DNA of 39,522 bases from an uncultured Bacillota bacterium. Its GTDB lineage: Bacteria > Bacillota > Clostridia > Christensenellales > Borkfalkiaceae. Below, piece after piece: positions 1,391-38,735 of this stretch. The stretch covers positions 1 through 39,522 of the forward strand of contig CASDTU010000069.1 of the NCBI GenBank assembly GCA_949283775.1. Reading direction: 5' to 3'. The notes beneath the pieces were generated by a model. It did no database searches. It was given only the letters and a program-made list of their open reading frames with translations, and had not been told where the DNA came from. A program made the position numbers and the translations under genes. Each line of letters starts with the position of its first letter. Position 1 is the first letter of the stretch.

Positions 1391-1524
1391 GAGCGCGCTG
1401 CTGAAAAATATTTCTGCAAACTGCCTGCCAAAGGTCTTTTCTCCCTTATTTGTGTATCTTTTTATCTTTTTACGCGCCCTTTCCCGAAAAGGCGCTCTGC
1501 AAGCGCCGCCTGAAATGTGCATAG

Positions 1525-1551
1525 AAAAAAGCTTCCTTCATACAAGGAAGC
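1525..1551 (-). terminator. Intrinsic terminator of the structured RNA
   Basis: A perfect 8-bp stem (GCTTCCTT/AAGGAAGC, 1531-1551) with a 5-base loop is followed on the minus strand by six T residues. It ends the minus-strand transcript starting near 1815, and possibly read-through from the MFS gene. Confidence 0.85.
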
Positions 1552-1815
1552 CGAATTTTCTACGATCTTGCCGAAAAGGGCGATCCGTTTGCCCCTGCCG
1601 AGATCCCATTGATTTGCAGGCAGCATACGCAGAAACTGCCGCCGCAAAGTTGTTTGCGCGAAGGATTCCCCTTCTTCGCGCATTGTATCGTATAGCGGCA
1701 AACGAGCGATTTTCCTCAGCATCCTTTCCGCCGACGGGTGAACTGTTTTAAGAAAACGTTGCGCGCCGTTCAAAGACGACCTGCACGCGCCGTGAGGGCA
1801 TCGGCCCTTTTCTTT
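1525..1815 (-). ncRNA. Putative structured non-coding RNA (6S-like rod?)
   Basis: No credible ORF fills this interval, but it has its own extended -10 promoter and a strong intrinsic terminator. The 5' end (1800-1812) is complementary to 1573-1584 over 12 of 13 bases, the next segment (about 1795-1800) can pair with about 1590-1596, and TGCAGG near the 5' side can pair with CCTGCA near 1613-1620, giving a long closing stem with a bubble. Inside are further hairpins, including an 8-bp stem GCGCGAAG/CTTCGCGC (about 1656-1681) closed by GCCGC/GCGGC. The overall rod resembles 6S RNA, but at about 290 nt it is longer than usual. RNase P, tmRNA and SRP RNA signatures are not seen. The class is uncertain. 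Confidence 0.55.
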
Positions 1816-1821
1816 ATCTTT

Positions 1822-1830
1822 ATTGTACCA
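1822..1830 (-). promoter_or_regulatory. Extended -10 promoter of the structured RNA
   Basis: The minus strand reads TGGTACAAT, a TACAAT -10 box (1822-1827) with a TG extension. No consensus -35 is present at 17 bases; a weak GACA-containing element lies about 18-20 bases upstream. The start would be near 1815, at the base of the predicted closing stem. Confidence 0.6.
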
Positions 1831-1891
1831 AACAGATTTCAAAAACTTGTCTGTTTTTTCTCTCGGTTTGTAAAATTTTGTAAAAGATTTT

Positions 1892-31588: not shown

Positions 31589-31844
31589 TGTTTTTACCTC
31601 CTGTAATATTTTTGCAAAGAACAATCAAAAAGCCGACTGCCTTCGCGCCTGCCAAAGCGCTGCGCGGCAGATTTTTTACGCTCGCCGCCCCCGCTTTGCA
31701 ATAAAAAAGTCCTCATGCCGCGCGGCATAAGGACTTGAATGCAAAATCATGCAATCCGTTCGACTTATCACCTGAGCGGGCCGTATCGCTACGATTAAAC
31801 CTTGCGGTGCCTGCCTTCTGCGGCAATCAACGATTCAATTTTTC
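31589..31844 (-). ncRNA. Ribosomal L10 leader (autoregulatory attenuator)
   Basis: The transcript from the 31851-31879 promoter runs about 255 bases before rplJ. It includes a structured part with a CCGCAAGGTTTAA segment (about 31790-31803), as in Bacillota L10 leaders, and then a terminator hairpin AAGTCCT...AGGACTT (31707-31736) with an inner ATGCCGC/GCGGCAT stem, followed by six T residues. Known L10 leaders bind L10(L12)4 to stop rplJ transcription. Position and terminator strongly fit; I did not match a covariance model. Confidence 0.75.
31701..31736 (-). terminator. Attenuator hairpin in the L10 leader
   Basis: Stem AAGTCCTyATGCCGC/GCGGCATrAGGACTT with one mismatch (31707-31736) is followed on the minus strand by TTTTTTATT. 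It lies about 120 bases before the rplJ start. Confidence 0.88.
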
Positions 31845-38110: not shown

Positions 38111-38186
38111 GGAAGTTTAGCTCAGTTGGGAGAGCATCTGCCTTACAAGCAGAGGGTCATAGGTTCGAGCCCTATAACTTCCACCA
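38111..38186 (+). tRNA. tRNA-Val (anticodon TAC)
   Basis: Acceptor GGAAGTT pairs with AACTTCC, the anticodon stem TCTGC/GCAGA encloses loop CTTACAA with TAC, and the T-arm has GGTTCGAGCC. The CCA end is encoded. It is the first gene of the array. Confidence 0.97.
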
Positions 38187-38223
38187 TCACAATACCTAAT
38201 AAAGTAAAGTGCGGAATCAAAAT

Positions 38224-38298
38224 GCGGGAATGGCTCAGAGGTAGAGCGTCACCTTGCCAAGGTGAATGTCGCGAGTTCGAATCTCGTTTCCCGCTCCA
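38224..38298 (+). tRNA. tRNA-Gly (anticodon GCC)
   Basis: Acceptor GCGGGAA pairs with TTCCCGC, the anticodon stem TCACC/GGTGA encloses TTGCCAA with GCC, and CCA is encoded after a T discriminator. It is 37 bases after tRNA-Val. Confidence 0.97.
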
Positions 38299-38321
38299 AT
38301 TCAATTCCGCACTTATTTTTT

Positions 38322-38396
<75 letters not shown>

Positions 38397-38406
38397 AGAA
38401 TAAAAG

Positions 38407-38440
38407 CCTCCGCTTCGCCGTAGCGAAGCGGAGGTTGTTT
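38407..38440 (+). terminator. Terminator of the tRNA array
   Basis: A 12-bp perfect stem CCTCCGCTTCGC/GCGAAGCGGAGG (38407-38418 and 38423-38434) with a four-base loop is followed by TTGTTTC. It lies between tRNA-Cys and the tRNA-Leu fragment. Confidence 0.85.
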
Positions 38441-38558
38441 CTCTACTTTGAACTATTATCCGCTGAATTTTTATGCCTGAGCCCTTTTTAGAGTTTCCGT
38501 TGAACGTAAACGGCGATCTTTGCATTTTTACCTGAATCGGAATTCTTTTAAGCCGCTT

Positions 38559-38591
38559 TGGCAAAACGGAAAACGCACAGGACTTAAAATC
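38559..38591 (+). repeat. Partial tRNA-Leu copy (anticodon arm fragment)
   Basis: The 19 bases 38573-38591 are identical to 38671-38689 of the intact tRNA-Leu (D-stem end and anticodon stem-loop). The similarity extends left to about 38559 with a few changes. The flanking bases do not restore a full cloverleaf, so this is a fragment and not a tRNA gene. Confidence 0.85.
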
Positions 38592-38648
38592 AGACGGCAT
38601 CCTCTGTTTTTGATCAAAAATAACTATAATTGAATACATTTTTCATAT

Positions 38649-38735
38649 GCCCGCGTGGCGGAATCGGCAGACGCACAGGACTTAAAATCCTGAGGAGTAA
38701 CATCCGTATCGGTTCAAGTCCGATCGCGGGCACCA
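38649..38735 (+). tRNA. tRNA-Leu (anticodon TAA)
   Basis: The 87-base type II tRNA has acceptor GCCCGCG/CGCGGGC, an anticodon stem AGGA/TCCT around TTAA with TAA, a variable arm (TGAGGAGTAACATCCGT) and the T-arm GGTTCAAGTCC. CCA is encoded. No promoter is seen after the array terminator, so it has its own or an internal one. Confidence 0.97.

Follow-up and report, generated by a model that had tools for sequence, protein, structure and literature searches.

A candidate small structured RNA gene between an MFS/Atg22-like gene and ruvX in Candidatus Borkfalkia, and its possible kinship with an RNA locus of the genus

Introduction

The space between an MFS/Atg22-like gene and ruvX, which lie on the same strand, raises a simple question: what kind of element is found there, and does it have relatives? 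The window, which is the whole stretch of DNA that was analysed (39,522 nucleotides), belongs to the genus Candidatus Borkfalkia. A sequence-only reading had placed a structured RNA gene of an open class in this gap. In kind, the element is ordinary, a bacterial small RNA, and it is unmatched in Rfam. Among the literature matches listed, which came from a weak search and are no proof of absence, there was no small-RNA study of Borkfalkia.

Signals and Predicted Fold of the Element

The element looks like the gene of a small structured RNA that has a promoter and a terminator of its own (Table 1). The extended -10 that had been claimed for the minus strand can be read directly in the sequence (TGGTACAAT, hexamer 1827-1822), and the strong intrinsic terminator is also present, as a hairpin at 1552-1530 with a mean pair probability of 0.98 and a U-run behind it. 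The long-range closing stem, described earlier as 12 of 13 complementary bases, was recovered as 12 pairs and one bulged base. Nine Watson-Crick pairs join 1812-1804 to 1573-1581 (mean probability 0.93), and the remainder joins 1802-1800 to 1582-1584 (0.91). A stem with nine or more Watson-Crick pairs around an interior of at least 200 nt was found in 55 of 3000 dinucleotide shuffles. The several internal stems of the sequence-only reading are likewise predicted and consist of an inner rod (1705-1688 with 1585-1601) and three hairpins. The longest inverted repeat found lies in this rod (1586-1596 with 1694-1704). One of the hairpins, at 1682-1655, is similar by eye to GCGCGGAAG-GGGGAAAA-GGCTTCCGCGC of the relative locus L052; the other two lie at 1648-1613 and 1788-1761 on the minus strand.

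The fold beats chance by a moderate margin and is not extreme. The predicted energy is -106.0 kcal/mol against a mean of -93.8 (sd 5.0) for 200 dinucleotide shuffles, which corresponds to a z of -2.45, and one of these shuffles folded as well as the whole element. When the terminator was taken out, the z was -1.80 and 12 of 300 shuffles were as good. The overall shape had been likened to a rod with a bubble, but the predicted fold is multi-branched.

Table 1. Coordinates of the features of the RNA candidate in the window
Feature	Position	Strand	Basis or remark
Promoter repeat region	1828..1878	-	Register of four pstS 11-nt repeats and 7-nt spacer
Repeats	1878-1868, 1867-1857, 1856-1846, 1845-1835	-	Only the first (TTTTACAA) is good
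-10 hexamer TACAAT, extended by TGG	1822..1827	-	Sequence
Predicted RNA, about 290 nt	1524..1816	-	Start placed from the -10; fold z -2.45; terminator
Closing stem, 5' arm	1800..1812	-	Pairs with 1573-1584, mean probability 0.91-0.93
CAACGTTTTCTTA	1749..1761	-	One mismatch from 3'-element core; misplaced, without hairpin
GAGGAAAATCG, loop-hairpin motif	1707..1717	-	Common to L045, L047, L048, L052, L144 and L212
Inner rod, 5' arm	1688..1705	-	Pairs with 1585-1601, mean probability 0.89-0.94
Hairpin TGCGCGAAG / CTTCGCGCA, loop AAGGGGAATC	1655..1682	-	Fold prediction
Inner rod, 3' arm	1585..1601	-	Fold prediction
Closing stem, 3' arm	1573..1584	-	Partner of 1800-1812
Intrinsic terminator	1524..1552	-	Hairpin 1552-1530, 9 pairs, loop 5, then U-run

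The MFS-ruvX Gap in Relatives

The order of the MFS gene and ruvX is kept in the 23 loci of relatives that were examined, with gaps of 138-1984 nt, and the loci of the genus cluster together by ruvX. Hairpins with a GGAAAA loop are present in these gaps. Four of them (L055, L040, L044, L043) contain a pair of RNAs. The upstream RNA has a U-run terminator of its own, and the one downstream of it carries a conserved 3' element. Other relatives, with gaps of 138-160 nt, have lost the RNA. Judged from the sequences, the relatives' gap often holds an RNA locus that is apparently switched on by phosphate shortage.

A single-gene tree of 38 ruvX sequences, rooted at the midpoint and given without support values, nests the window genome, G000, among carriers of the 3' element, where it groups with G019 and G022. 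G014 and G004, which are also without the element, nest among the carriers as well.

The surroundings of the gap show some further features. The MFS/Atg22-like gene of the window has an in-frame TAG at 2210-2212 on the minus strand, past which the frame of the relatives continues; a nonsense change, an assembly error and recoding are not distinguished here. Between the RNA and ruvX lies a perfect tandem repeat of 22 nt in 2.5 copies (1335-1389), and the gap of L057 contains repeated units that resemble a ruvX promoter.

The 3' Element

The 3' element, which is composed of CUCACACnCnnnAACAACUUUUUCUUACGG / CAACUUUUUCUUACGG and a covarying hairpin, occurs in 22 of the 40 genomes of the genus and in each case lies upstream of ruvX. 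Across 21 sequences, 10 of the 13 hairpin pairs have changes on both sides. A model of the element, R1, was run on 301 genomes of the family. Its matches that reach 49 bits number 23 and come from 22 genomes; all belong to this genus and lie on the ruvX strand, and those in G025 and G006 are outside the training set. Below about 50 bits R1 is noisy: at E ≤ 0.01 it matches 183 of the 301 genomes, and most of the matches looked at were strong hairpins. The exact motif pattern occurs once each in 16 of 40 genomes, and its reversed control in none.

The element can also stand behind a gene. In G015, G018, G029 and G031 it comes directly after the stop codon of a gene for a large secreted protein, and the G031 protein, the one that was searched, contains a choice-of-anchor I domain (E 1.4e-69). 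In G035, where a gene lies between the 3' element and ruvX, the RNA and a gene of the secreted type (by eye) are both present, with promoter scores of 33.7 for the RNA and -9.3 for the gene. L054 and L057 contain tiny ORFs that by eye resemble vestiges of the secreted-protein gene. The position right behind a secreted-protein stop was seen at L120, L123, L126, L130, L140 and L145, and the choice-of-anchor I domain at L140. In another genus of the family, G218 carries the element twice in tandem (39.8 and 39.1 bits; L211, 1223-1601, minus strand), flanked by a phosphoribosyltransferase-like ORF on one side and a response-regulator/kinase pair on the other, both named by eye; a third R1 match in this genome (43.8 bits) is a plain terminator hairpin.

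In the window, the 3' element is absent: the best R1 match in the whole stretch has 1.2 bits and an E of 10. Since R1 is unmatched, the window is not filed in the 3'-element family and is treated as no more than a probable copy of the upstream RNA. R1 fails to recognise CAACGTTTTCTTA at 1749-1761, and such matches with up to two mismatches number two in the window against 1.95 expected, so that this one is possibly there by chance. A moved copy elsewhere in the window genome was considered and rejected, the best match (33.9 bits, C3:17947) being a GC-rich hairpin without the full motif. Three matches to the 17-base core in viral contigs were set aside as well, as they are about what chance would give by our own estimate.

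Pho-Box-Like Promoters

The 27 pstS promoters share four 11-nt repeats (TTTATTACAAC-like), then 7 nt, and then TATAAT or TATACT, a layout of repeats, spacer and -10 that we take to be that of the PhoP box. Left out in turn, these sites score 41.2-76.8 with a PWM of the 27 promoters. In the ruvX gaps, a pstS-like site is present in 13 of 23, with scores of +6.9 to +47.5; the best sites of the other ten score -4.3 to -43.5. The contrast is partly built in, because a pattern demanding TTACA and a -10 served to select the training sites.

The promoter of the window has its -10 in register and scores -11.9, which ranks fifth among 78,930 positions with a background mean of -87.0 (sd 16.6) and is lower than all the pstS sites and the 13 good gaps. 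The top position, at -2.0, lies on the opposite strand of the same AT-rich stretch (1855-1911). Around the -10, the window reads TACAATAAAGATA, as against TAGAATAAAGATA, TATAATAGAGATA or TATAATAAAGGCA at the like place in relatives. The first of these is the context in L055 and L040, where the two best PWM sites in the gap exclude the upstream promoter; in L043 and L044 the two best sites include it (45.7 and 21.1). Because its repeats are degenerate, and because the close relatives L055 and L040 show no such box at the corresponding promoter, it is uncertain whether the window copy is under Pho control.

Similarity Between the Window and Its Relatives

A blastn search of the element against 101 genomes returned the window and three short matches only (G021, G062, G073). 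These were rejected as chance matches, all of them lying within long open frames. Phages gave no match to the element.

The window keeps the GAGGAAAAUCG motif, a terminator and a syntenic but degenerate promoter. Its loop-hairpin motif is exact, with a short stem that includes one U-G pair. In 12 aligned sequences, window included, the loop-closing pair is A-U in seven and G-C in five, and the covariation score of the hairpin was reached by 8 of 500 shuffles; pairs with double changes number 2 against a shuffle mean of 2.6 and are not above the shuffles. A pairing of the loop with the 3' element appeared possible by eye and was dropped, as no clean compensation was found.

A second model, R2, was built from the loop hairpins of 11 relatives, with the window left out. 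It finds 11 of 24 loci, including L044, which is outside the training set (27.9 bits, E 4e-4). Across the genus, it matches 22 of 40 genomes at E ≤ 0.05, where the top 11 matches are training sequences, the only non-training match at the locus is that in G009 (27.9 bits), and the remainder look like noise. In the window, the segment 1728-1675 is the second of eight matches in the whole stretch, with 10.7 bits and an E of 1.7, which is not significant, and at genome scale nothing was listed in G000.

Under strict local alignment with 15 relatives, L045, L047 and L212 match the same window segment with p of 0.009, 0.002 and 0.001, and the other 12 give p > 0.01; the best score with any relative was reached by 14 of 1000 shuffles. 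When only the body was aligned with the upstream RNA of L055, L040, L044 and L043, the summed p was 0.016 or 0.004 depending on the scoring scheme, for four relatives that were chosen after inspection and thus partly post hoc; singly, p ranged from 0.005 to 0.197 and exceeded 0.1 in two of the four. Lenient local alignment found nothing collinear in 16 gaps. In 15 of them z was at most 1.4, and in L048 it reached 4.6, but that alignment does not start at the promoter. Taken from the sequences, kinship of the window with the relatives' locus is weakly supported.

Origin and Possible Role of the Window Copy

The chances seem to us about evenly balanced that the window holds a non-coding RNA gene which is a copy, since diverged, of the upstream RNA in the Borkfalkia MFS-ruvX small-RNA locus. 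The shared gap, the register of the promoter, the local and body-only alignments and the nesting in ruvX speak for this reading. Against it stand the missing 3' element, the low promoter score, the R2 E-value of 1.7, the null result of the lenient alignment, the absence of the promoter from 10 of 23 gaps, and a pairing with pstS that found no support.

The promoters of the relatives' locus carry the pstS repeat pattern, and the RNAs would most likely be made when phosphate is short, with PhoP presumably binding to the repeats. The RNAs would then most likely pair with mRNAs through the unpaired stretches between their stable hairpins, and the window copy would be homologous, transcribed and functional. 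As a pairing target, pstS was rejected. In silico, shuffled leaders paired as well in fractions of 0.10-0.81 (11 of 12 genomes, G033 left out), and in all 11 genomes the pstS leader paired less strongly than control leaders did on average.

The nearest working analogy is provided by the csRNAs of the streptococcal CiaRH two-component system, as they appear in extracts of three papers (PMC3091779, PMC8186281, PMC4507080). Like them, the RNAs of the Borkfalkia relatives seem to be short, to have promoters with repeats resembling those of a response regulator and, as can be assumed for Borkfalkia, to pair with mRNAs. However, the regulator and the genus are different, and the repeats of the window are degenerate. 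A fuller picture is offered tentatively, as something that would sooner surprise us than not: a phosphate-controlled Borkfalkia locus whose 3' element resides in a free RNA or in the 3' UTR of the mRNA of the secreted choice-of-anchor I protein, with the window copy as a rebuilt version, which would have given up the 3' element and kept an upstream RNA of larger size. If this is true, gut Clostridia of this genus own a phosphate-responsive small-RNA locus that changes too fast for ordinary sequence search, and a 3' element can reside in a free RNA or in the tail of an mRNA. Such a locus would also offer a definite case in which the origin, splitting and loss of small RNAs can be studied.

The same divergence can be read as decay. 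The promoter, hairpins and terminator might be leftovers that are no longer selected, and the copy, diverged as it is, may be in decay. The 3' element was lost inside a group that has it, the promoter repeats are degenerate, the MFS gene next to it contains a TAG in frame, the sequence is hardly alignable, and other relatives with gaps of 138-160 nt have lost their RNA. Nevertheless, the fold is still better than that of shuffles, and both the terminator and the extended -10 are intact; we regard a mere remnant as unlikely. The weak similarity to relatives would also suit a structured RNA or leader that arose independently and shares nothing but its place with the relatives' locus. Against this stand a -10 context, a promoter register and GAGGAAAATCG that are all shared at the same place, and an independent origin appears improbable to us.

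Coding Potential

A protein gene, with the hairpins as by-products, has to be weighed against the diverged RNA copy. One minus frame is open over 1830-1462 and contains an ORF of 86 aa that runs from the ATG at 1722 to 1462. The earlier statement that the element has no credible ORF must be adjusted to this extent, although its substance, that coding is unsupported, stands. An open frame of this length in one of three frames is rare (0.45% of 2000 mononucleotide shuffles), and in L041 a short ORF follows the same promoter site. However, the 86-aa ORF reads through the predicted terminator, its codon score is exceeded by 97% of gene windows, and 26% of the windows in a wrong frame equal or exceed it. 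It had no match in Pfam, NCBIfam, PHROGs, PDB or plasmids, and a search of 201 genomes found, apart from the window, two weak matches that are both interrupted by a stop. Coding by this frame is unlikely on its sequence properties, and a short protein gene is a very improbable account of the element.

On the plus strand, an open frame of 313 aa (810-1751) runs antisense to ruvX and the RNA and was taken as spurious.

Known RNA Classes

The label of an unassigned structured RNA fits the element, as an Infernal-type check against Rfam gave no match; four matches with E of 0.37-7 were all far below the cut-off (a Plasmodium snoRNA, another snoRNA, a microRNA and a Salmonella sRNA). The call of an RNA gene by the sequence-only reading was sound, and its guesses at the class were not. 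A divergent 6S RNA (RF00013) would share with the element a free-standing structured RNA and a long-range closing stem, and a raiA motif RNA (RF03072), which an extract of one paper presents as a structured RNA of Bacillota (PMC11706538), would share the structured nature, with 209 model positions against about 290 nt. The length and the closing stem are all that speak for these two classes. The covariance model RF00013 finds nothing at the locus, the 6S RNA of this genome lies on another contig (C47, 53.2 bits), and the predicted fold is multi-branched. RF03072 is unmatched in the stretch at E ≤ 10 and in the genome at E ≤ 1; a control search of this family gave weak matches in 4 of 14 genomes and passed the cut-off in 0 of 14. 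We thus give hardly any credence to a 6S or raiA RNA. The third guess, something new, holds in part: the relatives' syntenic RNA locus is without an Rfam match (one relative scanned at E ≤ 10, four matches far below the cut-off), but the window lacks the best-conserved part of that locus. RNase P, which was prompted by the motif GAGGAAA, was discarded, as the RNase P of this genome lies at C86 (270.6 bits).

Hairpin loops with GGA recur in relatives and could suggest a CsrA sponge, which is next to incredible because CsrA is absent from all 40 genus genomes (0 of 40, in a search that matched 3 of 14 reference genomes as a control).

Other Features of the Window and the Genome

Elsewhere in the window, an L10 ribosomal protein leader (RF00557) lies at 31694-31841 on the minus strand, with 46.9 bits against a cut-off of 44, and four tRNAs lie at 38111-38732 on the plus strand. 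In a frame of 322 aa at G000:C1:3801-4667 (L176), the matches to PBP_like_2 occur in swapped order, with profile positions 129-266 before 6-126. The same order is also found in pstS loci of the genus and, from the sequences, looks like a circular permutation.
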